A stretch of DNA of 64,000 bases from Desulfurococcales archaeon (GTDB lineage: Archaea; Thermoproteota; Thermoprotei_A; Sulfolobales; Desulfurococcaceae), in NCBI GenBank assembly GCA_027022365.1, contig JALVYU010000031.1, forward strand, positions 372,001-436,000, read 5' to 3'. Positions 35,964 through 64,000 of the stretch are shown here, one piece after another (positions within the stretch are counted from its first letter, which is position 1; each line of letters begins with the position of its first letter). The notes below the pieces were generated by a model. That model was given only the letters and a program-made list of their open reading frames with translations, was not told where the DNA came from and searched no databases. Both the position numbers and the translations under genes were made by a program.

Positions 35964-35971
35964 GCCTCTAC

Positions 35972-38727: not shown

Positions 38728-38749
38728 CAAAGCCCCGGGGGTGACGAGC

Positions 38750-38953: not shown

Positions 38954-38966
38954 GGTTTAACTAACA

Positions 38967-40898: not shown

Positions 40899-40900
40899 CC

Positions 40901-41794: not shown

Positions 41795-41798
41795 TCAA

Positions 41799-43481: not shown

Positions 43482-43484
43482 TAA

Positions 43485-43988: not shown

Positions 43989-43994
43989 GTATCC

Positions 43995-44854: not shown

Positions 44855-44855
44855 A

Positions 44856-45230: not shown

Positions 45231-45475
45231 TCTATCCGTTGCTACTCCTATGCTTCTTCTCGACGGCGGGGATGATCTCGTCGTACCTGGCTATACGAGA
45301 GAAGGACTTGCTGAGGGCGATAGCGTTGTCGGCTGTCCAGTCAGTAGCATTCGCCCTGCTCTACGCGGTGCTGCTAGCACCCGATATACTCCTCGTGTAC
45401 CTCGCGGTCGGCCTCGGGATATACCCGATCATACTCATCTATACAGTAAAGAAGACGAGGAGGTATGAGGAATGA
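45227..45475 (+). CDS. DUF4040/MbhD-type antiporter subunit (MrpA C-terminal-like)
   Basis: 82 residues, three helices. EKDLLRAIALSAVQSVAFALL and LLAPDILLVYLAVGLG match the MbhD/DUF4040 piece related to the MrpA C-terminus. TTG start, overlapping mnhG and the next gene by 4 nt each. Confidence 0.8.
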   Translation: MIYPLLLLCFFSTAGMISSYLAIREKDLLRAIALSAVQSVAFALLYAVLLAPDILLVYLAVGLGIYPIILIYTVKKTRRYEE

Positions 45476-46269: not shown

Positions 46270-46663
46270 CTGGATACTGGTCTTGTACGTCTACCTTACA
46301 CTCTTCGTGACGGGCGGCATCGCGGTTTACGGAGTTGTCGCGAAGAGGAATATAGTTAAGAAGATCATTGCCCTGACGATCTTTAACGACGCCGTAAACA
46401 CGGTAGCGATATTTATAGGATACCGCTTAATACCCCGCCCGCTCCCACCGATCATGCCAACGATCCATCCTAATAGGCAGATCTACTCGGCATTCATATC
46501 GTCATCGGTTGATCCCCTCCCCCAAGCACTCGTAATAACGGCCATAGTAATAGGTGTAGCCGTCACATGCTTCCTCGCGTTCCTCGCCATAAGGCTCTAT
46601 GATAGGTTCGGCACGACGGATTACCAGGAGATTAAGAGGCTGGTCAGAGGTGGTAAGAGATGA
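46253..46663 (+). CDS. mnhC: MrpC/MnhC-type antiporter subunit (NuoK-like)
   Basis: 136 residues, three helices: VAKRNIVKKIIALTIFNDAV and PLPQALVITAIVIGVAVTCF follow the MnhC/NuoK pattern. It overlaps the end of mnhB by 17 nt, with a GTG start. Confidence 0.87.
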   Translation: MAAVLSWILVLYVYLTLFVTGGIAVYGVVAKRNIVKKIIALTIFNDAVNTVAIFIGYRLIPRPLPPIMPTIHPNRQIYSAFISSSVDPLPQALVITAIVIGVAVTCFLAFLAIRLYDRFGTTDYQEIKRLVRGGKR

Positions 46664-47148
46664 GGAGATACATTGTCTTGTTCATATTCTACTTCATAAT
46701 CTACTTGTTGCTCTCAGGGGGAACATACTTCACGGACGTCTTCTTCGCCGCCGTAGTTGCCGCCATAGCCTCGGCTCTCACCGCTAAGCTGCTGGTGAGG
46801 AACGAGGAGAAGCTCGAGCTACGCCGCTTATATTACCTACTAAAGTATTTCTTCAGGTACATGCTCGTCGATGAGATCCGTGCACACATCGATGTCGCGC
46901 GCCGTGTATTGACGGGGGAGATCAGGCCTGGCATTGTAGCGGTTCCCTACTATGTCGGCTCCGACTACGCGAAGACATTGATCGCGAACTCTATAACCAA
47001 TACTCCTGGAACCGTCGTGGTCGGCATAGATGATCGTGAGAAGCTCATGTATGTTCACTGGATCGACGTGAAGGCCCTAGATCCCTCTACGTGCAGGATG
47101 TATATCTCGAGGGTGTTCGAGGAATACGCTATGAAAATATTTGAGTAG
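46660..47148 (+). CDS. mnhE: MrpE/MnhE-type antiporter subunit
   Basis: 162 residues, one or two N-terminal helices and a soluble tail. The MnhE motifs IRPGIVAVPYY and LIANSITNTPGTVVV are clear. It overlaps mnhC by 4 nt. Confidence 0.88.
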   Translation: MRRYIVLFIFYFIIYLLLSGGTYFTDVFFAAVVAAIASALTAKLLVRNEEKLELRRLYYLLKYFFRYMLVDEIRAHIDVARRVLTGEIRPGIVAVPYYVGSDYAKTLIANSITNTPGTVVVGIDDREKLMYVHWIDVKALDPSTCRMYISRVFEEYAMKIFE

Positions 47149-47162
47149 GTGGTGCGTTAGAC

Positions 47163-48725
47163 ATGGTTCCGGCTGTAGACCCGTTACTAGGCCTGGTCGT
47201 GCTCGTACTTGCCCTCGGGGGATTCACGACCCCCCTGATAAGCCGTCTGTCAAGGAATAGATACGCCGTGAGGACGTACCCGCTGATATACTGTGCCGCG
47301 TCATTGGCGATGGCATCGCTGATCATGGAGCATGTATGGGTGGCTGGAGAGCCTGTCGTCTACCTGCTCGGCGGCTGGAGGCCGCCGGTCGGGATACTCT
47401 ATATTGCTGACGGGCTCAGCGCCTTGCTCGGCGTCGTAACCTCGCTGGTTATGCTCCTCATAATGATATATAGTACGGGATATCTCGAGGGCTCCGGGAG
47501 AGAATACACCTACTATTCCCTGATGCTCCTCCTCGAGGCGGGGATGCTTGGATGCATTTACACGGGCGACGTCTTCCATCTCTTCGTCATGCTGGAGGTG
47601 ACCAGCCTGTCCGCGTACGCGCTGGTAGCGTATATCCGTGACAAGCGCGAGGCCCTCTACGCGTCCTACAAGTACGCCATCTACGGCGGCCTCGCCACGA
47701 CAATATATTTCCTGGCGGTGCTGTTCATCTATGGGGGCGTGGGATCCCTCACGATAGGGGATATACATTTGAGGATGGCCGCCTACATGTCCCGGTACGC
47801 TAGGCCGGTCTTCCTGTGCGGGCTCGTATTCACTATCCTCAGCTTCACCGCGTTCCTCTACAAGGCGGCCGTCTTCCCCCTCCACTTCTGGCTCCCCGAC
47901 GCCCATCCGGAGGCGCCGTCTCCTGTATCGGCGGCCCTCTCCGGCCTCGTCGTCAATATAGGTGTCTACGGGATCGTTAGGTTCGCCTACACAATATACC
48001 ATGGCCTCCCCGACCCCGGACTATACAGTTTATCCCTCATGATCACAGGGGGGCTCGGGTGCCTGTCAAGCCTTGTCGGGGCGGTATTGATGGCCAGCTA
48101 TAAGGATGTTAAGAGGATAATAGCCAGCAGCACGATCATGAACATAGGGTTCATGATGATGGGGTACTCGACGGGTTCACCGCTAGGCATAGCCGCCTCA
48201 ACACTCCACCTAATGAACCACTCGTTCGCCAAGAGCCTCGCGTTCCTCTCAAGCGGCGTCCTCATCAAGTCAGCGGGATCAAGGGTTCTCGAGAGGCTCC
48301 GGGGGCTCGGCCGGGCACTGAGGTATGCCGGGATCCCGTTCGCCATATCCCTCCTCTCACTAGCCGGCGTACCGCTCTTCAACGTGTTCGTGAGCGAGTA
48401 CTTGCTGGCAGCATCCTTCATCCACACCGGGAAATGGGTGTTCCTCTGCTTCTTCATGGCATCCTACATCATAAGCACGATCGTCTACCTGAGGATACTC
48501 TACGAAGTATGCCTAAAGACCCCCGCCGCCCCCACAACCCATAGAAGCGGCAGGGAATGGATCCCCGTCGCCGCCATGCTCACCGCCCTATCAATAACCT
48601 GTATAATCACAGGAATACTCAGCGGATACATAATAAGCAAAATAATCATGCCGGCAAGCCAGTGTCTCTACACAAACACAGAATACCTAGAAACAGTGAA
48701 AAAATACCTACTAAACATACACTGA
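47163..48725 (+). CDS. mnhD: MrpD/MnhD-type antiporter subunit
   Basis: 520 residues, about 14 helices. Proton_antipo_M motifs: LHFWLPDAHPEAPSPVSAAL, KAAVFPLHFW, ASYKDVKRIIASSTIMNIGF and HSFAKSLAFLSSG. Last gene of the 13-kb run. With the MrpB, C, E, F, G-like subunits it would exchange Na+ for H+ using the gradient built by the hydrogenase. Confidence 0.92.
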   Translation: MVPAVDPLLGLVVLVLALGGFTTPLISRLSRNRYAVRTYPLIYCAASLAMASLIMEHVWVAGEPVVYLLGGWRPPVGILYIADGLSALLGVVTSLVMLLIMIYSTGYLEGSGREYTYYSLMLLLEAGMLGCIYTGDVFHLFVMLEVTSLSAYALVAYIRDKREALYASYKYAIYGGLATTIYFLAVLFIYGGVGSLTIGDIHLRMAAYMSRYARPVFLCGLVFTILSFTAFLYKAAVFPLHFWLPDAHPEAPSPVSAALSGLVVNIGVYGIVRFAYTIYHGLPDPGLYSLSLMITGGLGCLSSLVGAVLMASYKDVKRIIASSTIMNIGFMMMGYSTGSPLGIAASTLHLMNHSFAKSLAFLSSGVLIKSAGSRVLERLRGLGRALRYAGIPFAISLLSLAGVPLFNVFVSEYLLAASFIHTGKWVFLCFFMASYIISTIVYLRILYEVCLKTPAAPTTHRSGREWIPVAAMLTALSITCIITGILSGYIISKIIMPASQCLYTNTEYLETVKKYLLNIH

Positions 48726-49200
48726 CACACAATTAAAGAAGCCAAATAACCCCCAAGCAGATGAAAAACAATAAAGCACAGAACACCCCTCCCAAAAACC
48801 ACCCTCCACCCTCATCCCAGCAACAAAAACAACGCCAGACCAGACAATACCAGACCCAAAGAAGCCATAGAGAGCTCATCCACGGATCAGGCCATAACAC
48901 AATAACACGGGAGCCACTACTACAGAAGTACAGCCTCCCCGCAGAAACAGATGAAGCGAGAACACATAACTAGAAGCCGAGATCACACGTCAAAACCGGG
49001 ACAACCCCCATATAATTATATTAATATGTAATACAGAAAAACAACAAACACCACAGCCCACACAATATAGGAACGCCTCATCCGTAGTATAAGGACAGCG
49101 TAAGGCGAAGAAACAAAACATCAATATGCAGAATAAAAGAGTTGTCCTAACCACTAAATAAGAACGTTGGAATCAAGGTAGTACTGCTTACGGTTATATT
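48726..49200. other. C/A-rich intergenic region without a convincing gene
   Basis: The plus strand here is unusually rich in A and C and poor in G and T. A 70-residue frame (48761-48973) is low-complexity Gln/Pro/Thr sequence and is not accepted. No RNA gene or repeat family is recognised. The genes on each side end here (mnhD and the minus-strand gene at 49201). Confidence 0.5.
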
Positions 49201-49896
49201 TTATTCCCTCGCGGCGACAACACTTTGCCCCCCACCATTTCTCGGAGACTTAGAGTCCCCAGTTATCTTCCATAAAGGTTTAACGATAATATTCCTCCCA
49301 ATGATAAGGCCCGCAAAATACTTTAGAAGCCATATCAACCTATATAGCCTAACATAGTCTTCGTCAGAACCGCACCTGAATAAATAATAGTAGCAAAAAT
49401 AATCAGAGCACCGCCTAAATCTAAGCTTAACAAAATTACAGCTAACATCATCAAATTCAGACAAGTCTATCCTCGAACCAAACTCTGTTTTCTCCATTAT
49501 ATCCCTTATACTAGACACAACATTCCTTAGATCAATAAAACCCTGGCTCCTAATCCTGTTACTACTCACAATCTCATATCCAAGAAGGAGACCATCATAT
49601 TTACCATGCACCAGATCACCAAGCTTAACACTCCTGACAAAATACTTGTCGAAAAAAACCAAATACTTATTCAGATCCAAAACATCGTAGACAGTAACAT
49701 AATCAACCCTGTCATATAATGAGACAACAGACAAGAAAGTTAAACCCACATCGAGAAAACCATACTCACTGCTAAAAACACCGTACTCACAATAACCCCC
49801 ATAACAGCCATTAAACCAGCACCTAAAAATCTTCTCTAAAAAATCATCAATAATCATATTCTTACTTGCCATCTTGAAACCTACAATATACATCAA
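49201..49896 (-). CDS. Hypothetical protein beside the type III-A CRISPR locus
   Basis: 231 residues, unrecognised, rich in Tyr, Cys, Phe and Asp (CWFNGCYGGYCEYGVFSSEYG, RRCSDYFCYYYLFRCG). The C-terminal end is basic. ATG starts at 49896 and 49872 are both possible. It is divergent from csm2 and separated by a 317-bp promoter region. The unusual composition mirrors the A/C-rich plus strand, so it could be a false frame, but its 690-nt length and consistent protein-like pattern favour a real gene. A CRISPR accessory role is only suggested by position. Confidence 0.5.
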   Translation of the reverse strand: MMYIVGFKMASKNMIIDDFLEKIFRCWFNGCYGGYCEYGVFSSEYGFLDVGLTFLSVVSLYDRVDYVTVYDVLDLNKYLVFFDKYFVRSVKLGDLVHGKYDGLLLGYEIVSSNRIRSQGFIDLRNVVSSIRDIMEKTEFGSRIDLSEFDDVSCNFVKLRFRRCSDYFCYYYLFRCGSDEDYVRLYRLIWLLKYFAGLIIGRNIIVKPLWKITGDSKSPRNGGGQSVVAARE

Positions 49897-50127
49897 TGAA
49901 AAACCCTCATTACATTTAGTAATAGTAAATTAATCCCTTCAGGTGTCACATGCATGGGCAAAACTTTATTCTTACATTACTTTCTATATTAATCTCAAAA
50001 TCTTATAGTTACTTTTATATCAATATCAACGTATTGTTAGACTTATTTGTCGGAAAAAATGATACGTGGAATCGTATGGAGCAAGACTAAATGTCATCCT
50101 TTATATAGTTTTTTATCATTTTACACA

Positions 50128-50173
50128 GAATTTTTATCGAAAAAGGTTTATTTTTATGAATTTTTATAGAAAA
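50128..50173 (+). promoter_or_regulatory. csm promoter with two 16-bp direct repeats
   Basis: GAATTTTTATCGAAAA (50128-50143) and GAATTTTTATAGAAAA (50158-50173) differ at one base and are 30 bp apart, three helical turns. The TATA-like GGTTTATTTTTATG lies between them, about 55-70 bp before the GTG start of csm2. The rest of the gap 49897-50127 is AT-rich without a gene. Confidence 0.5.
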
Positions 50174-50213
50174 TATCCACAAGTTATTTTAATCTAAAGT
50201 ACATGGTGGTATC

Positions 50214-50672
50214 GTGTATAGATCGAATGCATTAACAAACATATTCTATACCATTATCAATAAGAAGGACTATGTTAATGCATTGAATCAGCTTAGAAAT
50301 ATACAAGTTTATGGAACAACCATGACTTCTTATCGTAAGATCCATTCACTAATTACGGATGTCGTCGATAAGGTATTATCGTTTGAGCAAGCAGGACAAG
50401 GATCAAGTATTACTAACGAGAAGGTTTCTATGATTGTTTCGGAGTTAGTGAGAGTCTCGCTCCTTGTACTGTATCAGATGAGGCGTGGATTGATTAATCG
50501 AACAGTGGCAGAAGGTTTGCACAGTATTTTAAACACCATTACGTCTACCCTCCAGAATTACCTTAGGAGCAGGGATTCAAAGTATATTGAGCTTGCAAAG
50601 AAACAGGTTGATGCATTAAAGATCATTATTGACGGTATACTGGCACTCCATTATGAAAAATTCAAGAAATAA
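50214..50672 (+). CDS. csm2: Csm2 (Cas11) small subunit of type III-A
   Basis: 152 residues, all-helical, with the Csm2-type pattern (VSELVRVSLLVLYQMRRG, the C-terminal KQVDALKIIIDGILALHY). GTG start after GGTGG. It begins the operon csm2-csm3-csm4-csm5-cas10. The family is assigned by position and helical fold, because Csm2 is poorly conserved. Confidence 0.72.
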   Translation: MYRSNALTNIFYTIINKKDYVNALNQLRNIQVYGTTMTSYRKIHSLITDVVDKVLSFEQAGQGSSITNEKVSMIVSELVRVSLLVLYQMRRGLINRTVAEGLHSILNTITSTLQNYLRSRDSKYIELAKKQVDALKIIIDGILALHYEKFKK

Positions 50673-50691
50673 GGAGGAGGTGGTAGGTATC

Positions 50692-51654
50692 TTGTCCCAG
50701 GAGAAAGGTTGGATTCGTAGGAGGATCCTAGGTGTATTAACTATAGATTATAGGCTCGTGAATACCACTGGATTACTCATAAGATCTCCGTCCGCAAAAG
50801 CCGTTATCGGTGGACACGATATACAGCCAATGATTATTAAGAAGAAATACGTATTCAGGGAACCTACGGGGGAGGGCGGAGGGAAAACCGAGGGCGTTGA
50901 GGTTGAGGTCCCATTTATTCCCGGATCGAGTATAAAGGGTAGAATGAGGAGTCTTCTAGAACTATATGAGGGTGCACGCCTTTATTTTGATGGTAAAATC
51001 CACATCCATGTTAGGGATCTCAATAGACAGGATAGGTGCAATGATCTAGATCATGCCCTGGATAATCTGTTCGGCTCCCCCTCTATCCAGGTTAAAAATG
51101 TAGCGGAGAAAAAGGATCTACTGAAAGATATTCAGGATAAGATCGCTCCTACTAGGCTTATCGTTGAAGACGTGTTCCCATCGGAGAAATACGTGCTGGA
51201 GTTGCTGAATCGATACGGTGTTGTCAGCAAAGAGGATTTCCTCGAGGAGAAATCCGAGAATAGAATCGACAGAATAACAAGCGCTGCTGACCCTAGGTTT
51301 ATATTACGGGTTAAGCCTGACGTTGAGTTCGCGGGTAGAATGACACTATTACTCTTCGATGTCGACTACAAGTATGATAAGATCAAGGAGTACCTGGATC
51401 TTCTATTGACAGGCTTCAAGCTTATCGAAGACACGTATCTCGGCGGCAGCGGGACACGTGGATATGGTAAGGTAAGATTCAAGGACTTAGTGATAAGGCT
51501 TAGAACACCCGGCTACTACCTAGGTAAAGAAGACGAGATAGAAATTGTAAAAGCCGGTAGCATTGATGAGCTATTAAAGACTAAGGATAAGGTACTAAGC
51601 AAGATCAATGAATATATTGTAAAATATGTCGACGAAGAGCAGTTGTCTGGATAA
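50692..51654 (+). CDS. csm3: Csm3 (Cas7) backbone and target RNA-cleaving subunit
   Basis: About 320 residues, a RAMP protein. It has the catalytic Asp motif IGGHDIQPMI (Asp about residue 43), the VPFIPGSSIKGRMRSLLE loop, the RIDRITSAADPRFI stretch, and the Gly-rich end LGGSGTRGYGKVRF. The frame is open to 50629. Only TTG 50692 or GTG 50680 lie after GGAGGAGG, and TTG has the better spacing. It overlaps no neighbour and is 17 nt before csm4. Confidence 0.88.
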   Translation: MSQEKGWIRRRILGVLTIDYRLVNTTGLLIRSPSAKAVIGGHDIQPMIIKKKYVFREPTGEGGGKTEGVEVEVPFIPGSSIKGRMRSLLELYEGARLYFDGKIHIHVRDLNRQDRCNDLDHALDNLFGSPSIQVKNVAEKKDLLKDIQDKIAPTRLIVEDVFPSEKYVLELLNRYGVVSKEDFLEEKSENRIDRITSAADPRFILRVKPDVEFAGRMTLLLFDVDYKYDKIKEYLDLLLTGFKLIEDTYLGGSGTRGYGKVRFKDLVIRLRTPGYYLGKEDEIEIVKAGSIDELLKTKDKVLSKINEYIVKYVDEEQLSG

Positions 51655-51671
51655 GGGGGAGCCTAAAGGAA

Positions 51672-52730
51672 TTGATATACTGGTACAAACTACATTTTAC
51701 TTCACCGGTCCACGTCGGTGAGCGTGGAATAGGAGTTGAATCAGTAAGCAACGTCATACACTCAACAACTATTCATGGTGCATTGATAAACGCCCTACTA
51801 TTGCTGAACAGAATCAATCCACGGGACGTGAGAAACATAGATCTAAGGCTTAACACACCAGCACCAATACTCGATATAGAAGGTTCGACCGAGAAGCTCT
51901 TATGGCTGAGAGGCCTCCATATTCTCTGGGCAGAGAAGCTCAGACAGTATCTCAAAGACGATGTACGATTATACAATGAGCTCATTAAGAAGCTTAAGAG
52001 CACATTCCTTGTAACAAGCTCGTTCCTCGATCACGATATACTCGAGTGTCGCGTCGAGATGCATGGGGCAAATAGTCGTGATGAGGAAATCATGATCAGG
52101 TGCGGCGGCGATGAATATAGACTATTAAGTATTGGCGGGTACTTCGGGAACATCATATTAACTAACGATATCGGCGACACAGAGATCGCGGGGATAGCGG
52201 AGCACGAGATAAGGCCTAGGAACAGAATTGATAGAATAACAAGTGCCGCCGAGCCATACCATCTCGGACTGATAAGGTTTCATAAACCATTATTGCTTGG
52301 AATCAAGAATAATTCAAGCATATTATCTCGAAACGATATCGAGGCAGCACTAAGGTTTCTCGGCGATACAGGTATAGGCGGGGAGAGAACATATGGTTTC
52401 GGCAAGTTCTCATTCGAGAAAACAGACGGTATAAGGGTAAACAATGATGATCAAGCTAAGCACGTCGTAGTGCAGGGACTCTATTCTCCCCCGCCAGAAA
52501 AACTCGGTGAAATACTAGGGAATTCAATATACCAGTTAATGATATATGGCTTTAGAAGCGGATATACGGGCATTGTCCGCAAACCCGTGCCCGTGCTCCG
52601 TGAGGGTAGCATCATATATTGTGACGGGGAATGCAACGGCAGAACAGTTATTGATCGCGAGCCCCTGGGAACCATCATAAGATCATTTAATCCCATCACG
52701 ACCCCTTTCAAGACCAGCGATAATACTTAG
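51672..52730 (+). CDS. csm4: Csm4 (Cas5) subunit of type III-A
   Basis: 352 residues, RAMP fold: FTSPVHVGERGIGVESVSNV, IHSTTIHGALINALLL, RNRIDRITSAAEPYHLG and TGIGGERTYGFGKFSFE. It caps the crRNA 5' tag and contacts Cas10. TTG start. Confidence 0.88.
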   Translation: MIYWYKLHFTSPVHVGERGIGVESVSNVIHSTTIHGALINALLLLNRINPRDVRNIDLRLNTPAPILDIEGSTEKLLWLRGLHILWAEKLRQYLKDDVRLYNELIKKLKSTFLVTSSFLDHDILECRVEMHGANSRDEEIMIRCGGDEYRLLSIGGYFGNIILTNDIGDTEIAGIAEHEIRPRNRIDRITSAAEPYHLGLIRFHKPLLLGIKNNSSILSRNDIEAALRFLGDTGIGGERTYGFGKFSFEKTDGIRVNNDDQAKHVVVQGLYSPPPEKLGEILGNSIYQLMIYGFRSGYTGIVRKPVPVLREGSIIYCDGECNGRTVIDREPLGTIIRSFNPITTPFKTSDNT

Positions 52731-52740
52731 GTGTTACTCC

Positions 52741-53931
52741 ATGAAGTCGAATCTATTCACTAAATACGTACTGGAAGCAAGCGTGGTGTCCGAGGTTTTC
52801 ATCTGGAGCGGTAATGATGTACTGGTTGGTTACGATATAGTCTTTGTGAATGATAGGGCTTACTTAATCGACCATGATCTGATGGCCTCTAAATTGCTCG
52901 AAACAAGTAGCCGGAATATTCTTGGTGAACTGAAGAACGTTTTAGACAGGGGATTAAGTCTTCTGGGATTTTTGAAAAAATATGGCATTAGGGTTGATGA
53001 TATATCGCGGGATACCCTCCCCGTAAAGGATCGAAGGATATTAATGGAAACCTATAGATATGTGAAGGATCATATACGAATGAAAAACAAACCCTATATC
53101 CCGGGATCGGAGATCAAAGGGGTATTGAGAACGGCATTACTTAACTTCTTCGTCAGTACTGGGAAAATACCGAGAAAAACAATTGATGAAATCATGCAAG
53201 GTCTCGATGAAAAGATAATTAAAGAAAAAAATGCTGGATGGGGTGTTGAGAAAATATTTAAGATGATCCTATCATATGAAAACTATAGTAGACGGGTACA
53301 GCAACACTATGTTGATATCCTTCATTACCTACATGTTTCCGACCCTTTAGAGATGAGGAGCAGATACGCCGTTGACACCATAGCCGTTGTTAAACGCACT
53401 GATCCCGGAAAAACCACCGCTATACAGCCCATTATCGGGCTCGAAGAAGGATCGAGGTTTATCTATGAGGTAAACCTGTACAGGCCTATTAGAGAAGATG
53501 CATCCGGATATAGTACTGAAATCGGTAAGTTATTGGAGAAGTACAACAAGGTATATACCGTCTTCTTCGACGCATTAAGGTATTTCTCATTGAAGCTAAT
53601 AGATTATGAGATAAGGCAGTTGAGTAAGCTACCCAGTGCGCGCCAATTCGTAGAGAGGCTTAAGAGCTGGAGAGGCGAAGTCGAGGCCGGGAAAGCCTAT
53701 TATTTCAAGATCGGGTTCGGCGCCGGAATGTATTCTAAAACTATTTATCTTAGCCTTAACAGGAAAGAACAGGCCCAGCTCATAGATATTATGTCTAGGA
53801 AAATAAGGCGGAGGACCAGGGGAAAAATCCATGTATGGGATACACTGACCTTAAAACTAGTTGGTTCACGGTATCCTAGTGAAATCGTCCCCTTCGGCTG
53901 GGTAAGGTTTTCATTTAAAAACATTTCATGA
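52741..53931 (+). CDS. csm5: Csm5 (Cas7-like) subunit of type III-A
   Basis: 396 residues. It contains PYIPGSEIKGVLRTALLN, typical for Csm5, and the late Gly motif FKIGFGAGMYSKTIYLSL. It caps the 3' end of the crRNA in the complex. It follows csm4 by 10 nt. Confidence 0.87.
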   Translation: MKSNLFTKYVLEASVVSEVFIWSGNDVLVGYDIVFVNDRAYLIDHDLMASKLLETSSRNILGELKNVLDRGLSLLGFLKKYGIRVDDISRDTLPVKDRRILMETYRYVKDHIRMKNKPYIPGSEIKGVLRTALLNFFVSTGKIPRKTIDEIMQGLDEKIIKEKNAGWGVEKIFKMILSYENYSRRVQQHYVDILHYLHVSDPLEMRSRYAVDTIAVVKRTDPGKTTAIQPIIGLEEGSRFIYEVNLYRPIREDASGYSTEIGKLLEKYNKVYTVFFDALRYFSLKLIDYEIRQLSKLPSARQFVERLKSWRGEVEAGKAYYFKIGFGAGMYSKTIYLSLNRKEQAQLIDIMSRKIRRRTRGKIHVWDTLTLKLVGSRYPSEIVPFGWVRFSFKNIS

Positions 53932-53945
53932 AACGGTGAGCAGTA

Positions 53946-56855
53946 TTGAGTAATTACCTGTATGAATTAATATACAGCGCCCTCCTCCACGATATCGGTA
54001 AGATCAAGAACAGGGTTGAGAAGAGAGGGTTCCACGAAAAGCACAGCGTCGAATTTCTAAGCCTATACGCCGACATGTTCAAAAAGATCGGTACTAGATT
54101 CGATGTTATCGAAAAACTGGTGTTATGTCATCATATCAGCCGCAGAGATCGTAGGGGTAGAGAGGAGCTCCATATATGTAGCAATCTTAGTGATGAGGAG
54201 CAAAGCCTCCTAGGGACGCTTCGCGAGGGGGATCACAAAGCCGCCCCCGACAGGATCACCAGAGAGAATCCTCTCGGCGGTGGAGAAGGCTCGAAGAAGC
54301 TGTTGAAGCTGGTCTCGCCTCTATGGGTTAAAAACTATTACGACCTGACAAAGAACAATGATAAGCCTATAAATATTGAAGACTATGCGGAGAACATTAT
54401 AGCTAATAGCAGGATCTGCTATAATCCTGTACCATTGACTGTTCTTAGCAAGTACGGTTCAGGTGTTTCAACAATCATTAACTCTTACCAGGCCAGTCAA
54501 TGCACTGATGAACAGTATCTTAATGAGTATTATAGGTTGATCCTTAGGGATCTCGAGGACAAGTTCGACAGGCTGAGGGAACTCGTGATCCACGACTACA
54601 TGGATAAAGACACGGTTCTAGCCTCCCTAATCAACTATATAAGGTACTCGCTACTACTCGTACCCGATGACGTCTATAATACATTGTTTCCTGATACAAG
54701 TCTCGCGGTACACTTAATACTGTCTTCGGCCCTCGCTTCTTCATACTATATCGGGGGATCAGATAAGATACGGGTTGCACTCTTAGATCTAAGCGGTATC
54801 CAAAACTATATTGCCTCGTACGCTAAGACCAGCGGCGTGCTGAGACAGATAAGAGGCCGTTCCCTACTCCTACAACTCGTAATGCGTGCATCCGCTGAAT
54901 ACATACTTGATAGACTAGGATTGCCTCCAGTCCATCTCATCCTCCTACGAGGAGATAACGCGTTATTCATTCTGCCCGAGAAGATCAACGACGAGGATAG
55001 CGGCAAACTATTCCTCGACGCCGCAAGAGAGATCGAGGAGAGCATCTATAGGATCTTCCACGGCGACATATATGTTGCAGCAGCAGTATCGGAGCCATTC
55101 ACCCCCCTATATAGCATGCCATGGAAACCCGATTTCGGCGAGAAAGGCTTCTCCAAAGCACTCATCGAACTCGGCGAAAAACTAAGCCTTGACAAGATGA
55201 GGAAGTTCTCACGAATAACCAGCTCGCTAAGCGAACACGTAAGCCTCGATGACAATGATCAAAAAAGTGTAGATGAGTGCGAACTATGTAGAGCAACGCT
55301 ATACAAGGATAAACTCGTCGACATAAGAAAGTATGGTAAAGCCTGTGGACTTGACTACCTAGATGCAGAAAAAGCCTGTCTAGCATGTCTATTCTCCCAT
55401 ATAGCCGGCTACGCTGCCGAGAATCTCAGCTTCATAATAGAGATCCGCGACAAGAAAATAACCGAGAAAATATTCAATGACCTTCTGTCCGGGGAACTAC
55501 CCTCCAAGTTCAGGATCGAGGACTATAAGATAGGTATAATACCATTAGTAGGGCTTGACCGTACATATATACTTATATCATTCCAGGAAAAGAACGCGGA
55601 AAAACATAGTAGTAAAAACGTTGATGAAGAATGGAGGAGACTATATAACTTCCTAATAAACATTGTTATTGATAAAGTCCTCAAAACATACGGATATGAA
55701 ACATATTCTTCAGGAATAAAAACTATCCGTATAACTGTAATGAAGATTAATGACCCGCTCAATTCTATTCCAAAGCAAGAATATTGTGGGGCAAGACTAC
55801 CGACTATGTTAGGTCATGGTATCCGTGTAGTATATAGCTTCACAACATTGTTCACTAACTTTACCACAAAAGGAATGAATGATCTAGGTGAACTCGCGGA
55901 AGTTGATAAAGAAAAAGAGACCTATCTATCATGGATAAAAATCGATATTGACAGGATGGGTGAGAACGGATTATATCTTATTGGAAGTATTAGTCGTTAT
56001 ACTACATTATCGGAGCTCGTCAATTTCTTCACTAACATGCTGGGGTACGAGCTATTAAAGCAGAAATCAAAGCGCTTGGATGGCGGGGAGGAAGGAATAT
56101 GGAGGAAATCTATTGTGGTCTTCAGCGGCGGAGACGATACTCTTATTATATCACGCTTTGTCGAGGGACTCTATTACTTGTACTACTACCATGACTGGTT
56201 CAAGAGGTTCTTCGGCGAAATAAGCGGTAAAGAACCATTGACCGTCTCAGCAGGCATGTTTGTATCGGAGGCAGATTATCCGTCATACCTGGCTTATAAG
56301 GAGGCCTTAAGGCTATTAGAAAAGGCTAAGGACGAGGGAAGAAATAGGATCAGCACGTCTATCCTCGATCTACACGTACCATCAGCAAAGGATACCGTCT
56401 CCTCAAAGCAGCCGAAGAAAACCCTTGAATGGGATAAATTCAAGAATATCATCTCATTATCCACGGATACCACTGTAACAAGTTTCGTCAAAGAACACAA
56501 GGTACTAGCGTTCAAAATAGCGTCTTTAATGGAAAATATCAGCGCCGCATCATACGGCATCCTCAATAGTATAGCGTCCGGATCCCCTATACGGAGGGAA
56601 CAATACAGGGAACTCGCAGAGAAGATCGTTGCATACACTTATGTCTATAAGAAGTTCGAGAAAACAAGTACGGGTGGCTCATCGCTCAAACAAGTACTCG
56701 ACACCATAACGAATAAGCTAGGGGTAGGTGATGCTACGCCGAAAAACCTGATCGATCTAATGGTCAAGGACAAGATAGACGAGATACTGCTTATAACATC
56801 CAGCGTTTACAGGGCATTATCCTTAATCCTACTGAGGATCAAGGAAAACATCTAG
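53946..56855 (+). CDS. cas10: Cas10 (Csm1) large subunit with HD nuclease and cyclase domains
   Basis: 969 residues, TTG start. HD domain: SALLHDIGKIKNRVEKRGFH with the following EKHSVEF. A zinc finger (CELCRATL, later KACLACLFSH, about 440-480) separates the palms. The second palm has the GGDD cyclase motif VFSGGDDTLI (about 725), so cyclic oligoadenylate should be made on target binding. Both the DNA-cutting HD and GGDD motifs are intact. It closes the csm operon. Confidence 0.93.
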   Translation: MSNYLYELIYSALLHDIGKIKNRVEKRGFHEKHSVEFLSLYADMFKKIGTRFDVIEKLVLCHHISRRDRRGREELHICSNLSDEEQSLLGTLREGDHKAAPDRITRENPLGGGEGSKKLLKLVSPLWVKNYYDLTKNNDKPINIEDYAENIIANSRICYNPVPLTVLSKYGSGVSTIINSYQASQCTDEQYLNEYYRLILRDLEDKFDRLRELVIHDYMDKDTVLASLINYIRYSLLLVPDDVYNTLFPDTSLAVHLILSSALASSYYIGGSDKIRVALLDLSGIQNYIASYAKTSGVLRQIRGRSLLLQLVMRASAEYILDRLGLPPVHLILLRGDNALFILPEKINDEDSGKLFLDAAREIEESIYRIFHGDIYVAAAVSEPFTPLYSMPWKPDFGEKGFSKALIELGEKLSLDKMRKFSRITSSLSEHVSLDDNDQKSVDECELCRATLYKDKLVDIRKYGKACGLDYLDAEKACLACLFSHIAGYAAENLSFIIEIRDKKITEKIFNDLLSGELPSKFRIEDYKIGIIPLVGLDRTYILISFQEKNAEKHSSKNVDEEWRRLYNFLINIVIDKVLKTYGYETYSSGIKTIRITVMKINDPLNSIPKQEYCGARLPTMLGHGIRVVYSFTTLFTNFTTKGMNDLGELAEVDKEKETYLSWIKIDIDRMGENGLYLIGSISRYTTLSELVNFFTNMLGYELLKQKSKRLDGGEEGIWRKSIVVFSGGDDTLIISRFVEGLYYLYYYHDWFKRFFGEISGKEPLTVSAGMFVSEADYPSYLAYKEALRLLEKAKDEGRNRISTSILDLHVPSAKDTVSSKQPKKTLEWDKFKNIISLSTDTTVTSFVKEHKVLAFKIASLMENISAASYGILNSIASGSPIRREQYRELAEKIVAYTYVYKKFEKTSTGGSSLKQVLDTITNKLGVGDATPKNLIDLMVKDKIDEILLITSSVYRALSLILLRIKENI

Positions 56856-56928
56856 CGAAACAAAACCCATAAAGCAATGTATCAAATTACCATCACTACT
56901 TTTTATACCCAACAGTAATGCCTACTTT

Positions 56929-57217
56929 CTAGCACCACGCTCAGCCCCACTAATTATTTCCTTCACCTTATGGGAGAACTTCTTTATCATCGAATACTAG
57001 AATCTTTTTCAAATGGTATCTTTAACTTATCCTTTATGTATCCATTTATTATTAGTAGGCGGTATCTATTTGAATTAAAATAAGCTATTAGATTGACCAG
57101 AATATTCTATCATAAAATCCGTATTTTTACTCGTCCCAGGTTTTCTTAAGATATTCTCTGCCTAGCCCGTGGCATTTAAAATACTCTATAGTATCCTCGC
57201 TGTGAAGTAGCCATTTT
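56929..57217 (-). pseudogene. Decayed gene of unknown family between cas10 and csx1
   Basis: Three frames on the minus strand join into one protein-like reading: KWLLHSEDTIEYFKCHGLG, then REYLKKTWDE with a stop, KYGFYDRIFWS, LIAYFNSNRYRLLIINGY, and an end SHKVKEIISGAERGARK with TAG at 56929. Several frameshifts and stops break it. It fills the gap between the csm operon and csx1; the remainder of 56856-57390 shows a TATA-like stretch before csx1 and nothing else. Confidence 0.45.
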
Positions 57218-57390
57218 ATTTAGAAGACCTTAAGAGCACCTAATTAGAGCATGTATGGGTATTGTTCTCCTAGGGATAAATTGTTTATATTGTTTTTGTA
57301 ATTGAGGCTAACAAGTTGTTTGTGGAAAGGACTAAAAATTCTAAAAACCATATATATGTTTAGATCTTCTACTCTGCTGGTGTAGCATTA

Positions 57391-58890
57391 ATGTCAGGTC
57401 TGAAGATACTACTTATTGCCCCTTGGGGATACCCCCCTCTATGGAGGACTAGTAATTATCAATTGAATAATGTGTGGATTGCCGGAAGAACATTTAGTGG
57501 TCGTTGTACGGGTTGTAGTAGTTCTCTCTGCCTCTACTTCACATTAAAGTCGAGTAGCAAGATTGCTGACACATGGCTACTTGTCATAGGATCTGACTCA
57601 GTTATAAGTCCTGAAAAACGTTGGCCTATAAGAGAAAATGTAGAAAAATGGTTTAATGATATAAAGAAACAATTATTCGATACAACCAAGTGTGAGGAAA
57701 TTAGTAAAAAGAGTGAATGGCTTGAAGACATATATGTAGAAGTCGTACCCAGTATAGGCCAGTATTATGGATATTACTTCAAGGGAGACATTATTGAAGT
57801 ATTCGTCGAAGCATACCGTGCTATAACCAACTATATGGAAAAACTGAAACCAAGTATCATAGTACTAGATACCACGCACGGCCTAAACATATTAACAATA
57901 GCTACGCTTTACGCTACAATAGCAGCTTCAATAATATATAATAAGAAAGTCTATATTTTCAACTCAGAGCCCTATCCACCAGGCACAAGAACTAAGGCTT
58001 GCGTCAAAGGAGAGAAACCTGTTCCTATTGATAATACACCCGAGTTAAACATACATGACATATCGACTCTGCAATGGATTATAGATTATTTAAGGGCACT
58101 AAACTTTCTAAGGTATCTTAATGAAAAGCCTTTAGCAAAAATGATCAGAGTCATTGAAGGCATAGAAAATCCGCTCATAAATAAGCTTGTCACAAATATG
58201 ATCTGCATGATTGAGGCATTAAGGACTGGATTACTTGGACTAATATATAATAACAGTAAGTTTTCCAACGGAGAAAACATATCATTCACAATAAGAAGTA
58301 TTGTTGAAAAACTAAAAGAACTACCCAAAATACAGAGGGATAAACCATGGACAAAGCCCATAGTCAGAGACAAGAACGTCGAATACGAACTAAGCATTAA
58401 GGATATCCCGATAAGATATATACCAATACTCGATGCTCTAAGAAAGATCATTGGGGAATTAGAAGGGCTCGCAGAGATTGAATCGTTAAAAGAGTTTACG
58501 AAGCAAATTGCTATACTGCTTGACAGTAAAGGATACTGGGAGAAGAAGCAGATCATTGTACATGAGGCATTCGATCTATTAGATATTGTTGAGGAAATAT
58601 ATGAGAATGAAAAGACAACCGAGATCGATAGAGAATTACTCAGAAAGTACTGGAAGAAAAGGAAAGGTATAAAGGACGATAGGGAAGGAGCGTCGGCGGA
58701 GTCAAGTCACGAGCTCGTTTCGCCCAGAAATTTCGCCGCTCATGCTGCTTTAAACCATAATGTGCTTGAGAAGATCAAGACGAGTGATGATGGAAAAGAT
58801 ATTGTTGAAATAGTTTACAACTACACTGATCTCAAGAAAACAATCAAGCAAATCGGCGATAAAACTAGTCTGATGAAATGTATATCTTGA
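57391..58890 (+). CDS. csx1: Csx1-type CARF-HEPN ribonuclease
   Basis: 499 residues. The N-terminal CARF domain starts LLIAPWGYPPLW and has the ligand motif VLDTTHGLNILTI (about 158). The C-terminal HEPN domain carries RNFAAH (Arg-X4-His, about residue 448), the RNase catalytic pair. It would be activated by cyclic oligoadenylate from Cas10 and cut RNA non-specifically. Encoded just after the csm operon, in its own unit. Confidence 0.88.
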   Translation: MSGLKILLIAPWGYPPLWRTSNYQLNNVWIAGRTFSGRCTGCSSSLCLYFTLKSSSKIADTWLLVIGSDSVISPEKRWPIRENVEKWFNDIKKQLFDTTKCEEISKKSEWLEDIYVEVVPSIGQYYGYYFKGDIIEVFVEAYRAITNYMEKLKPSIIVLDTTHGLNILTIATLYATIAASIIYNKKVYIFNSEPYPPGTRTKACVKGEKPVPIDNTPELNIHDISTLQWIIDYLRALNFLRYLNEKPLAKMIRVIEGIENPLINKLVTNMICMIEALRTGLLGLIYNNSKFSNGENISFTIRSIVEKLKELPKIQRDKPWTKPIVRDKNVEYELSIKDIPIRYIPILDALRKIIGELEGLAEIESLKEFTKQIAILLDSKGYWEKKQIIVHEAFDLLDIVEEIYENEKTTEIDRELLRKYWKKRKGIKDDREGASAESSHELVSPRNFAAHAALNHNVLEKIKTSDDGKDIVEIVYNYTDLKKTIKQIGDKTSLMKCIS

Positions 58891-59061
58891 TAATGGGATC
58901 CCTGCTGGAAGGAAATCAGTATACATGTTAGTAGACGATCTAGGGATGGGTGTCTTTATTGGTAAACAGTATCTCTAATACTGTATTTCAATTGGTGCCT
59001 CAGTGAGTTTGAGGAAGCTGTTCAACATCATTGATTGATGCTCTGTAAAAACATGTTTTTC

Positions 59062-59895
59062 TCACTGCTTCTCTATGCTTAGCAATGTTTTTGCGAGCCT
59101 GACGGCTTCTGGTAGTGGTCTGCCGTTTATTGTTAGGCCCAGCCTATCGGTTACGGCCCATATCTCCTGGGGCAGCTTCTTCTCTGTGAGTAGCAGGCTG
59201 AGGATCTTCTTCATGTTGTCTGTTAGCTCCAGCTCTATCACTGGTATTTCGATTATTCTTCTCATGTACTCGTGTATGTAGTACGCTGTATCTATTCCGA
59301 GGATGCTCGAGGCCAGGAGGAGGAACCCTGTCTCTGGCTTGAATCCCGCGGTGAGGTTTACTAGGACTCTGTCGTAGTCTCTGCTCTTGGCCACTCTCCA
59401 GGCGATCTTCTCGATGAGGTTCAGGATCCCTCTCCAGAAATCCCTGCCGAAGCCCTCGACCATGACCGCCTCGACGCCTCCGACCCGGTGGCCCTTCCCA
59501 AGGTACTCGTCCCCGAGGCCATGCCTCCCCAGGTACTCCATGATTATCCTCGACGCAAACATGCTCGTACCCGTATCGGTCGGGTACAGGACGATATCGT
59601 GGATCACGCCGCTGTAACCCCTGCTTATCAGCAGGTCTACGTATCCCATGAAGGAGTTCAGCTCGGCGGAGGCCCGACGGGGATCAGACTGCACATACGC
59701 CAGGACATCCCTGAAAACACTGGACGATACACGGGCGTGCTCGCCCGCGTCCTTGTCCCAGAACGAGTCGGGCGCCGCGCGGGACCACTCCCTGAGCCTC
59801 TCCGCGTGCTTCCCGAGTATATCGTATTCAACAGCGTCTCGAGCCGCATTCCTAATAATACTGGTCCCAACCGTTGTCAAGTGGAGAAACCTCAA
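59062..59895 (-). CDS. CARF ring-nuclease-like protein (APE2256/Crn1 family)
   Basis: About 277 residues. The start is TTG 59895, with GGTGGTGATC directly upstream; a longer frame to 60126 has unlikely sequence at its front. CARF motifs: LHLTTVGTSIIRNAA at the N-terminus, and VLVNLTAGFKPETGFLL near the middle, whose Lys and the Ser/Thr of the first motif match the catalytic residues of Crn1. The last 70 residues look like a winged helix (LLLTEKKLPQEIWAV). It would degrade cyclic tetra-adenylate and switch Csx1 off, or act as a CARF regulator. Confidence 0.72.
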   Translation of the reverse strand: MRFLHLTTVGTSIIRNAARDAVEYDILGKHAERLREWSRAAPDSFWDKDAGEHARVSSSVFRDVLAYVQSDPRRASAELNSFMGYVDLLISRGYSGVIHDIVLYPTDTGTSMFASRIIMEYLGRHGLGDEYLGKGHRVGGVEAVMVEGFGRDFWRGILNLIEKIAWRVAKSRDYDRVLVNLTAGFKPETGFLLLASSILGIDTAYYIHEYMRRIIEIPVIELELTDNMKKILSLLLTEKKLPQEIWAVTDRLGLTINGRPLPEAVRLAKTLLSIEKQ

Positions 59896-60645
59896 GAGAT
59901 CACCACCAACCAGTAGTATTGTTCTAGTAGGAATAAAACATTGTCCGTCTCCCACAGGCCCACCCAGCCCCATATACCCTCTACGTGGACGCTGATCCCC
60001 AGGGCGTCTCCAGGGATCTTGATCTTTTTCAATTATTGGATCTCTGGCGGATGTAAACCGGGGAGTTACCAGGCACCATAGCCCCCAAACACACAACCAG
60101 AACAAAAAAGACGAAATACAAATCATAAAATCACAGCTGAGCCCTCAAACCCTTCCAGAGAGAATATCTCCCATGATCGCGCCACAGCCACATACACTCG
60201 TCAGGAACACCTATTCAGCAAAAACGAACACCAAGCCACAGATAAACACCAACATGAACGACAACAACGTTCCACAGCCTCCCCATAAAAACCCAAGAGA
60301 AAAACTGGTTACCCCTCCCCATCGTTCACAAAACGTTCGTTTCCCCAGTTCATTTTAACTGTTCATTTACGCCGGGAGAACATTGAGGAAAAATAATGCT
60401 GGATACAGCTGAGCTGTATAAACAACCGGACACGAAACAATTCTTCACCCACACCCCGAGCCGTTCAAATACTCGTCCACAGCCCGAGAAACAACTATTA
60501 TAGGGGGCGTTCACGAACAACAGTTCACAAACAATAAATTCGCCCACGTTCACATTTTTACGAACACCTCATCTGTTTCCTCTAATCAAATTTACAGAAG
60601 AATATACTGGAGAAAAATTGAAAGAGAGCCCTGAAAGACCATATT
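59896..60645. other. Intergenic region rich in GTTCA/GAACA motifs
   Basis: About 750 bp with no accepted gene. From about 60200 to 60570 GTTC or GAAC steps occur over a dozen times, for example CGTTCACAAAACGTTCG (60323-60339), AGTTCATTTTAACTGTTCA (60348-60366) and GTTCACGAAC (60509-60518), a perfect palindrome. The plus strand is A/C-rich. A 67-residue frame (60350-60553, minus) is G/T-rich and low in protein character, so it is left out. Confidence 0.45.
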
Positions 60646-60646
60646 A

Positions 60647-61000
60647 CCTCCAGTTTATTCTTGTTTGTCTCTCGGATAAACACCACCACGTACCCCTTGA
60701 TCAATAATCCGGTGCTCAACCTCTTTCAGTTCTATTTGTTTGTTTCATACCCATGACTTTCAGTTTTCTTTGTTTGTATCGATCACGCTTTGAATACCTT
60801 TCTTACGGGCGTATTCCCAGAACTCATAGCTTTCAGTTATTTGTATTTGTTTCCCTTCAAATCCCGACTACTGGGCGAATAATCCCGAATACGAAGAGAT
60901 AATCTTTCAGTTTTTTGTGTTTGTTTCTGGATGGTTCTCAATTAGCTTCTGGAACGAATACAAGTATATCATCATCCTTTCAGTTCTTTTTGTTTGTTTC
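60647..61000 (-). CRISPR. Short CRISPR array, six degenerate 24-nt repeats
   Basis: Repeats on the plus strand read CTTTCAGTTCTTTTTGTTTG+TTTC (consensus), at 60977-61000, 60904-60927, 60830-60853, 60757-60780, 60723-60746 and a poor one at 60647-60671. On the minus strand the repeat ends GAACTGAAAG, the usual 5' tag for Desulfurococcales/Sulfolobales arrays, so transcription is leftward and the leader lies at 61001 and beyond. Spacers are 49, 50, 49, 10 and 51 nt. Repeats vary at the middle T-rich positions. The most degenerate repeat is at the far end, as expected. Confidence 0.8.
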
Positions 61001-61145
61001 TGTTCTTGTTTGTTTATTTGGTTGTTTTAATATTTTATGTTTTGCTCTGGTGTTTTCCCCAACGATCCATTGGCCCGGTGAGAGCCACCATAAACCGGTT
61101 GGTATAGATCAGCGATAAAGTGTTAAGCATAGGCTAACACAGAAT
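61001..61145 (-). promoter_or_regulatory. CRISPR leader
   Basis: A/T-rich 145 bp between the first repeat and the divergent cas6. On the minus strand it contains ATAAAATATTAAAAC (TATA-like, near 61025-61040) about 25-40 bp before the first repeat. It is taken as the leader from position and composition only. Confidence 0.45.
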
Positions 61146-62057
61146 ATGGTGGGGGTTGTCTTGGTTTTGTTTGGGGACTTGTTTGGTGGTAGGTGGTTGT
61201 TTGAGTCGGGTGTTTCCGGGTATTTTTTGCTGCGTGTTGTTGTTAGGGTTGTTTGTGATGGTGGCTGGGTGGTTCTGCCTCCTTTTACGGGGAAGGTTGT
61301 GAAGTCATTACTTATCCGTGGTTTTGGTGGGCTGGATAGTGTTTTTGGCGGTGTGTTTAACCCTAAGCCGATCCATGTCTCGCCCCTGCTTGTTGGTGGT
61401 AGGTGGTTGTGGAAGCGGGGCGGTGAGAGGGGGGTTCTCCGTGTCCGGTGCGGGTCTGAGGCGGTCTTCTATGTTGGGTGTACTGAAGATGTTGCGGGGA
61501 TGGTTTTTAGTGGTGTTGAGGGGCTGAGTGGTGCTGAGCTATTTAATGCCCGCTGGGAGCTCGTCTCCCTGGATATTGAGAGGTATGATCTCCCCTCGGA
61601 GGACCTGGGCATCGGGATCGATGGGCATGACAGGGTTGTCGTGGAGTTTAAGAGCCCCGCCATACTCGTCGATCCCTATAAGGCCTCGCCCAGCAACCCG
61701 AGGTTCCTGCCGCTTGCAGGGGTCTTGTTCTCGTACAATATAGGTGATCTGCTCCGTATGAGGAGGCGGGAGCATAGATGGGAGTCGAGGTTCTGGGCCG
61801 CTGTCGATATTGTCAATGCTGTCCTGCACGAGCATAGACGTATACTGGACAACATATATACCGTCACGTATAACTATGATGGCAGGATAGGCTACGGGGT
61901 CGGCGGCAGGGCGGTCTACTATATCGTTAAGAGGATTATAAGGGAGAAGCCCTGGGTCAAGGCGTTCCTGGAAAACATAATCGTGCATGCAAGGATCATG
62001 GGCGTAGGCTCGAGCAGGGCGAACGGATTCGGCCACGTATCTATAAGGCTAGAGTGA
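61146..62057 (+). CDS. cas6: Cas6 pre-crRNA endoribonuclease
   Basis: 303 residues. LPPFTGKVVKSLLIRGFG at the N-terminus and the C-terminal Gly-rich loop GVGSSRANGFGHVSI are Cas6 features. A central FLPLAGVLFSYN is also seen. It would cut the array transcript 8 nt before each spacer. The first 20-30 residues (VVLVLFGDLFGG) are odd, and a start at TTG 61197 may be the real one. Divergent from the array leader, so both may share control. Confidence 0.8.
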   Translation: MVGVVLVLFGDLFGGRWLFESGVSGYFLLRVVVRVVCDGGWVVLPPFTGKVVKSLLIRGFGGLDSVFGGVFNPKPIHVSPLLVGGRWLWKRGGERGVLRVRCGSEAVFYVGCTEDVAGMVFSGVEGLSGAELFNARWELVSLDIERYDLPSEDLGIGIDGHDRVVVEFKSPAILVDPYKASPSNPRFLPLAGVLFSYNIGDLLRMRRREHRWESRFWAAVDIVNAVLHEHRRILDNIYTVTYNYDGRIGYGVGGRAVYYIVKRIIREKPWVKAFLENIIVHARIMGVGSSRANGFGHVSIRLE

Positions 62058-62075: not shown

Positions 62076-62816
62076 CTACCCGGCCACGAGGCCCCTGGGT
62101 AATGGCACGTACTCGGCCCTGATCCTCCCCCTATAGCTGTACGTTATCTTGTACATGGGTGCTGCGCGGACGTAGCCTATGATGCTTTTCTCGCCTATGA
62201 AGGGATTGTTTCTCGTGACTAGGACGGCGCTGTAGTCTCTCACGTCTACCCCCATCTCCTTCATGTCGCCTATGTTTACCGGTATGGTTGAGTGGCCCTT
62301 ATACAGTGGGCCCGCCTCTACGATCTTGTCTGGACGGATAATCCTTGCCCTGATTATCCCCCACCGCTTCTTACCGATCCTAATGTATCTCGGCAGGGGC
62401 TTTTGGGGGTCGTGTATGATTATGGTCTTGTACAGGGAGCCGGGCCCCACCGCGTAGTAGTGTACCTGCAGGGGGTGTACCAGCTTCGGCTTAGCCTTCT
62501 CTGGGATCGCCAGTGTCTCCGGCGTCGGCGACAGGAATATCCTTGTATAGGACACGTGGATCGGCTCCGCCGGGTAAACGTAGAAGCCTTCCCTGATGGC
62601 CTCTGAAACCACCCTGTAGCTCGGGGGAATGGTTCTCCCCATGATGGTCTCCGAGCTGTAGCCTAGGAACCCGTAGATCAGCGGGTAGTTGTGTATGAAG
62701 GGGTGCGTACGGATCATGGGGCCCGGGGACAGTGTTGATTCCTTTATGCTCTCCTGCATCTTGGAAAACACTAGTAGTCCGTGGACTTCGAGGTAGGCTA
62801 TGCTTACCGTGCGCAT
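62076..62816 (-). CDS. csc1: Cas5/Csc1 of type I-D CRISPR
   Basis: 246 residues, Csc1 type: THPFIHNYPLIYGFLGYSSE, the motif NPFIGEKSIIGYVRAAPMY and a basic end. It lies 3 nt after the Cas7/Csc2 gene in a minus-strand run. In type I-D it caps the crRNA 5' end. Its presence with Csc2 marks a type I-D effector, but the large subunit Cas10d/Csc3 is not in the window. Confidence 0.75.
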   Translation of the reverse strand: MRTVSIAYLEVHGLLVFSKMQESIKESTLSPGPMIRTHPFIHNYPLIYGFLGYSSETIMGRTIPPSYRVVSEAIREGFYVYPAEPIHVSYTRIFLSPTPETLAIPEKAKPKLVHPLQVHYYAVGPGSLYKTIIIHDPQKPLPRYIRIGKKRWGIIRARIIRPDKIVEAGPLYKGHSTIPVNIGDMKEMGVDVRDYSAVLVTRNNPFIGEKSIIGYVRAAPMYKITYSYRGRIRAEYVPLPRGLVAG

Positions 62817-62819: not shown

Positions 62820-64000
62820 CTACTTCTTCCCCTTCTTCTTTCCTTCCCTGCCAGCCAGCTTTGCGAGCTCGTCATGCTTTGCCTTGGCGTCACTCCACGC
62901 CTCCCTGGCAATATTTTTGAGGTCGGCCTCTCTCCTCACCGTCTCTGCGATGCCGCTGCTTATACAGTATTTGGCGTACGGCGTGGCCTTCCCGATCTCC
63001 CTGATGTAGCCCTTATAGATCGTCAGTGCCTCCTCAGGGGTCTTCGGGGCGGAGGACAGTATTTTAAGGGCCGCCTCATAGCCGCTCCCCACCTCGTAGG
63101 GAGCCGCTATCAGCCCAGCGATCTCAACTGCTACTCTGCCGAAGTGCGTCTGAACGGCGCCGAGGCGATCGATGGTGGCGAGGCTGTAGAGTACTAGTAG
63201 GAGCTCGTTCCACGTCAGGTTCTTCAGGGCGATCTTGCCGACGAACAGTACTCCGGGCTTCACAGCGCGGTCCTGGAGGAGCGCCTGCCCGGTCACGTGG
63301 AGCGCCTCGTCCACCGCGTTCCTCGTGAAGGTGAATGTAGCGTCTTCCTCCCTAACAACAGCGTAGTAGACGTCCCCCTCGACCCTGCTCTTCACATTAT
63401 AGTCTCCGCCCTGGACGGCGAACCCGTAGATGAGGCAGGCCGGGCATCTCCCACAGTACCCGACGCCCTTGGATCCGCCTGTGACGTTTACTATGCACTG
63501 CCACCCGCCGCCCAGCAGCTCCTCGAGAACCGCTGATGTCTCCAGCGTGTAGCTTATCCTGTCGAGCACCACGAGGGCTTGGGCCCCGGCTTTCTCGGCG
63601 TACTCTACTGCTTCCCGGCTGTGCAGCCTAACGTGTGTGGACATGAGCTTCTGCACGGTGTATATGTTGATCAGGCCCGGCCTCCCGGCCTCCACGGCGT
63701 CCCCCCTACCGTACCCGTAGAAGGTGATCCGGGCCGGGAGCTTGACGAGGTCTCCGCCGCCACTCCCGCTCTCCTCAACCTTGCCTACTACGGGCACATC
63801 CAGTGCCTCAAGGTGCTTCTCGATGCCGGGTATCGGCGTCGCCGTGGAGAGTATTGTCAGCGAGCCGCTCTCCGCGAACAGCTTGACCAGTGCCAGGCTG
63901 GAAAGGTAGTCCAAGAGACCCCAGGAATGGTACTCGTCGAAGAAGACGATCGGCTTGCTGCCGAGCCGTAGATTAACCGTTCCCAGCCTGGCAAGCCTGT
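62820..64000 (-). CDS. Chimeric ORF: Cas3-type helicase N-terminal part joined to Csc2 (Cas7) C-terminal part, partial
   Basis: A single open frame runs from the right edge to 62820. Reading from the edge, it has KPIVFFDEYHSWGLLDYL (Walker B DEYH), LTILSTATPIPGI (motif III) and a motif IV-like ALVVLDRISYTLE: a Cas3' helicase as in type I-D. Then, without a stop, it continues VTGGSKGVGYCGRCPACLIYGFA and FTRNAVDEA, RLGAVQTHFGRVAVEIAG, which are typical of Csc2 from its Cys motif to the end. Helicase motifs V-VI, all of Csc3 and the first 100 or so residues of Csc2 are missing. The join lies near 63480-63530. A Lys-rich tail follows. A deletion or an assembly join could explain it. Confidence 0.7.
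   Translation of the reverse strand, partial: RLARLGTVNLRLGSKPIVFFDEYHSWGLLDYLSSLALVKLFAESGSLTILSTATPIPGIEKHLEALDVPVVGKVEESGSGGGDLVKLPARITFYGYGRGDAVEAGRPGLINIYTVQKLMSTHVRLHSREAVEYAEKAGAQALVVLDRISYTLETSAVLEELLGGGWQCIVNVTGGSKGVGYCGRCPACLIYGFAVQGGDYNVKSRVEGDVYYAVVREEDATFTFTRNAVDEALHVTGQALLQDRAVKPGVLFVGKIALKNLTWNELLLVLYSLATIDRLGAVQTHFGRVAVEIAGLIAAPYEVGSGYEAALKILSSAPKTPEEALTIYKGYIREIGKATPYAKYCISSGIAETVRREADLKNIAREAWSDAKAKHDELAKLAGREGKKKGKK

Follow-up and report, generated by a model that had tools for sequence, protein, structure and literature searches.

What does it mean for a type I-D CRISPR locus when its helicase gene and its backbone subunit gene are found as one open reading frame? The right-hand end of a 64,000-nucleotide stretch of a Desulfurococcales archaeon genome (the window; positions 372,001 to 436,000 of contig JALVYU010000031.1, here C31, assembly GCA_027022365.1) raises this question. 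The initial annotation had described an in-frame chimera of Cas3 helicase and Csc2 there and offered two readings, a deletion remnant or a new fused protein. The minus strand of the window carries a single open frame (62820-63998) that runs off the window edge. The full gene begins with a TTG codon at window position 64652 (C31:436652), 652 bases outside the window, and encodes 610 amino acids in 610 codons (L002:1821-3653, minus strand, corresponding to window 64652 down to 62820). This one frame, together with alignments to Cas3' of G015 and Csc2 of G039, two genomes of the same family, confirms the chimera as first described (Table 1).

Table 1. Coordinates of the chimeric gene, its parts and the surrounding CRISPR loci (window numbering unless a locus or contig is named).
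Feature	Coordinates	Strand	Remarks
cas3'-csc2 chimeric gene, in-window part	62820-64000	-	about 393 codons
Cas3' part	63540-64000	-	residues ~219-371 of 610; DEYH, STATP, first strand of second helicase domain
Join	63504-63542	-	codons 372-383; pairwise alignment limits, unique 29-mer
Csc2/Cas7d part	62820-63503	-	residues ~384-610; Cys motif YCGRCPACLIYG, natural C-terminus
csc1 (cas5d)	62076-62816	-	246 aa, apparently intact; TIGR03159 above cut-off, PADLOC Cas5d
cas6	61146-62057	+	303 aa, apparently intact; PADLOC Cas6; convergent with csc1
Leader 1	60998-61145	+	~150 bp, ~87% identical to inverted leader 2
CRISPR array 1	60723-60997	+	five repeats CTTTCAGTT..TTTGT
CRISPR array 2	64822-65065 (outside window)		uniform repeats
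Type III-A effector genes	50214-56855	+	csm2-like, three genes in csm positions, cas10/csm1
Csx1 and CARF7/ring-nuclease-like protein	57391-60126	+ (Csx1), - (CARF7)	CARF-HEPN (Csx1); III-A neighbourhood
I-A genes and C39 adaptation genes	L003:3406-7468 and L077:471-6018

Both partners are cut short at the join. The Cas3' part comprises about 371 residues, of which residues 1-218, including Walker A, lie outside the window, and chimera residues 1-381 align at 57% identity with the complete 744-residue Cas3' of G015. It retains Walker A (APTGAGKS), DEYH, STATP and the LVVLDRISYTLE strand, and the alignment with relatives shows motifs V (AIELGIDNPRA in relatives) and VI (QRIGRIGRRE in relatives) to be missing, as had been proposed; Pfam gave a sub-threshold DEAD match on this end of the protein. 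The Csc2 part is about 71-72% identical to Csc2 of G039 (residues 376-534 aligned) and starts near residue 101 of its relative, so that the first ~100 residues, including the VPxI...RR region, are lost; profile matches likewise begin only at position 88 of Pfam PF18320 and position 75 of TIGR03157. The order of motifs first noted, from DEYH and STATP into the Cys motif and C-terminus of Csc2, is thus present in the alignments, and the join was placed where the Cas3' and Csc2 alignments meet. Judged by these alignments, the union of two domains at such identities is far beyond chance. Some phmmer matches to other Csc2 proteins started at residue ~314 and extended over the join; since intact Cas3' aligns along the whole of residues 1-381, we attribute these extensions to chance. 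An Rfam search returned no matches, and a fold prediction for the window part of the chimera, made from a shallow alignment, gave a mean pLDDT of 45.7 and low values over most of the chain, which makes it uninformative.

The in-frame state of the join means little on its own since it would arise by chance in about one case in three. The 610 codons contain no stop, and relative-rate comparisons revealed no amino-acid acceleration in either part of the chimera compared with its relative, the join itself being known from one genome. Of 12 such comparisons one was lopsided, that of Csc1 with outgroup L084, in which the relative evolved faster than the genome studied here; it was disregarded, as the L084 reading is not a verified frame. 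The gene thus bears no direct mark of decay; an intact frame and the lack of acceleration fit either a recent event or remaining constraint, between which rates cannot separate.

If the chimera were part of a working type I-D effector, the remaining subunits should be encoded somewhere in the genome. A concatenated query of the G039 cas3', cas1, cas4, cas10d and csc2 products found cas1-cas4-cas10d in G039, G038 and G015, three genomes of the same family; in the genome under study, whose assembly is 99.97% complete, it matched, apart from the two parts of the chimera, only a distant cas1 (35% identical) on the small contig C39, where that gene lies with csa1-like and cas4-like genes. Cas10d/csc3 and I-D-type cas1 and cas4 were thus not found in the assembly, nor were the 3' half of cas3' or the 5' part of csc2, so the proposed loss of Csc3 extends to the whole genome, including the search elsewhere that had been suggested. 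The TIGR03174 (Csc3) profile also gave no match here, and we do not rely on it because its controls were equally empty. Of what a functional I-D system needs, the locus has csc1/cas5d, and cas6 with leader-bearing arrays; it lacks a complete Cas3' helicase (about 371 of ~744 residues), a complete Csc2/Cas7d, the Cas10d/Csc3 large subunit with its HD nuclease, and I-D cas1 and cas4 of its own.

The genes beside the chimera, csc1 and cas6, appear intact. csc1 begins 4 bases 3' of it, following normally as originally observed, and is 54% identical to csc1 of G039. Relatives of cas6 in same-family genomes are 37-50% identical, and several of these genomes have no csc2 or cas3' match. Leader 2 and array 2 lie directly upstream of the chimera, and the two inverted leaders bracket the I-D locus. 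The repeats of array 1 drift in their middle bases and those of array 2 do not, while the leaders of the two arrays are nearly the same. Two more small arrays of the same repeat class are found on contig C26 (L094:3746-4463 and L095:3965-4692), and their leaders share 89-95% identity with the two leaders of the I-D locus. Each adjoins a tRNA-Leu gene, one with the anticodon tag and the other with cag, and the sequences between tRNA and array are similar. Given the inverted leaders and the two C26 copies, repeats for further recombination exist in this genome.

A fusion maintained by selection might be expected to recur in other genomes. Across 229 genomes of the class, the two halves otherwise matched separate frames only. 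Among 398 sampled genomes of the phylum, 22 contained Csc2; the open frame has 616 codons here and does not exceed 402 codons in any of the other 21. Scanning genome contigs with the Csc2 alignment gave seven named loci (among them Desulfurococcales, Pyrodictium, Metallosphaera and Vulcanisaeta), all with separate genes and none fused, and the same contigs gave no match to the whole chimera. Plasmid records held only Csc2-sized matches and no fusion, and viral contigs had neither a relative of the Csc2 part nor a copy of the join DNA. No second cas3'-csc2 join was found in these collections, and the recurrence that would have been a sign of a selected fusion is thus missing. Broken csc2 genes do occur: the I-D loci of G202, G531 and Vulcanisaeta sp. 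JCM 14467 (L093) resemble the present one in this respect, which indicates that I-D decay is not unusual, but in these csc2 is split into several frames rather than joined in frame to cas3'. Cas subunits bearing a foreign domain or a fused subunit are also known from described variants, namely HNH-Cas5 of I-E2, HNH-Cas8f of I-F4 and the multi-Cas7 effector of III-I (PMC12669027); these keep whole domains, whereas the chimera is a single case with both partners truncated at the join.

On this evidence we interpret the locus as the remnant of a dead type I-D effector, either recent or not yet decayed, with a probability of about 0.8. A rearrangement with ends in cas3' and csc2 would have placed the 5' half of the helicase gene in frame ahead of the final two thirds of the gene for the backbone subunit. 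Without motifs V and VI the product, if made, could not act as a Cas3' helicase, and without the N-terminal ~100 residues it would be no normal Cas7d filament subunit. Work on type I-D has described the recruitment of Cas3' to Cascade (PMC10212523; PMC9123187) and has assigned to Cas10d both the HD nuclease and the recognition of the PAM (PMC10212523); with Cas10d absent, neither a PAM reader nor an HD nuclease is available, and from what is known of the family the locus should no longer support I-D interference. A leftover of gene loss is the most likely explanation, as two further CRISPR systems are present in the cell.

The part of the original proposal that named a deletion fares less well than the part that named a remnant. 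In G038 and G039, cas3' is divergent from a cas1-cas4-cas10d-csc2-csc1 row, and in other families of the order it lies downstream of csc1 in a csc2-csc1-cas3' row; no relative examined has a cas3' that precedes csc2 in the same orientation. Because these orders place cas3' either divergent from or downstream of csc2, a simple deletion cannot make the join from them. The G039 I-D locus (contig C35, JALWZC010000035.1, a metagenome-assembled Desulfurococcales genome) and that of G038 are homologous to the present one (cas3' 45-48%, csc2 71%, csc1 52-54% and cas6 47-50% identical) and likewise have arrays with related leaders, but they hold a complete divergent cas3' and a complete row, whereas in the present locus the shortened cas3' and csc2 form one gene and the remainder is absent. 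From such an order, one inversion that begins within cas3' and ends within csc2 could have produced the head-to-tail join and would have left csc1 in place behind it; later loss would then have removed the other half. We infer this route from two sister genomes, and its reciprocal product was not found. A plain internal deletion from an unsampled co-directional cas3'-csc2 order would yield the same remnant with no inversion; it would be the simplest event had that order existed, and the genes in between, cas10d and cas1-cas4, are just those that are missing. As none of the relatives examined has this order, we regard the deletion as a possible though less favoured course, an estimate that concerns the route only and falls within the remnant explanation.

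Two further explanations would deny that the chimera is a remnant. Under one, selection would have favoured a truncated helicase and a truncated Cas7d that cooperate with Csc1 and Cas6, for instance in binding crRNA or in regulation. The in-frame join, the 610 stop-free codons and the even rates of both parts would fit this idea, as would the apparently intact csc1 and cas6 beside the gene and the leader and array directly upstream of it. Among the genomes and collections searched, however, the join occurs in this genome only, and motifs V-VI, the Csc2 N-terminus and the large subunit are missing, which makes a selected fusion very unlikely. Less probable still is its specific form, in which the expressed chimera, with Csc1 and Cas6, would build a slim I-D particle free of the large subunit or would be a regulator that binds crRNA, made of a shortened Cas7 and an attached ATP-binding domain. 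The other explanation is an assembly or binning artefact in which two pieces of an intact I-D locus were put together erroneously, and the division of the assembly into 44 contigs gives it some room. Against it, the join lies ~59 kb from the end of a 494-kb contig, and the 29-mer that spans it occurs once genome-wide even when up to 3 mismatches are allowed, so there is no repeat at hand that could have misled the assembler; in addition, the missing I-D genes are nowhere in the assembly, and a wrong join would hardly be in frame and keep csc1 in place. An artefact is therefore very unlikely as well.

The remnant is better supported than a new fused protein because Csc3, cas1 and cas4 are gone, both parts are incomplete and the join was found in no other genome or collection searched: the locus is most likely what is left of a known system, unusual in that two of its genes are joined in frame, and not a new kind of protein. 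As a fused protein it would have neither the recurrence in other genomes that had been proposed as a check nor, in either part, what the respective family needs. Read as a remnant, the locus illustrates one way in which class 1 CRISPR systems die, an internal rearrangement near repeated leaders in a cell with other CRISPR systems present, and for annotators it means that a Csc2 or Cas3' profile match at such a locus does not signify a working I-D system. A functional fusion would represent a new class 1 subunit architecture, to which no finding points.

The cell's two other systems are of types III-A and I-A. An apparently complete type III-A system adjoins the remnant, and about 20-30 kb from the remnant, at C31:456-466 kb, are type I-A genes (csa3, cas7a, cas5a, a 385-residue gene lacking an assignment, cas3', cas3'' and a second, distant cas6), accompanied by an array of 13 repeats; contig C39 carries adaptation genes and a further array, of 15 repeats. 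Most type III loci rely on a Cas6 supplied in trans (PMC12669027). Given this, and given that relatives of the retained cas6 occur in genomes with no csc2 or cas3' match, it is plausible that III-A shares it, and we see about an even chance that the neighbouring III-A complex obtains crRNA through this cas6 and the arrays with their leaders.

The remnant and the III-A genes belong to one 16.2-kb island, which extends from window position 48873 to C31:437075 (L002:4076) and contains III-A, Csx1, the CARF protein, both arrays and cas6, csc1 and the chimera; its right edge is the trailer end of array 2. The island is absent at the syntenic site of G006, a genome of the same genus (L104), which is 91% identical over 35110-48872 and resumes at 65075 (window numbering), with 85% identity in the right flank. 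As the whole island is absent there, it was gained or lost in one piece or in a small number of steps. G+C content is 0.36-0.43 on the III-A side (window 48873-60130), 0.58 in the I-D remnant and 0.53-0.54 in the flanks, a contrast that hints at different origins of the III-A side and the remnant. Beside the island site, G006 has a glycosyltransferase gene (L104:14578-14959) whose match covers residues 2-127 only and contains a TGA; the gene is cut off by the end of the contig.
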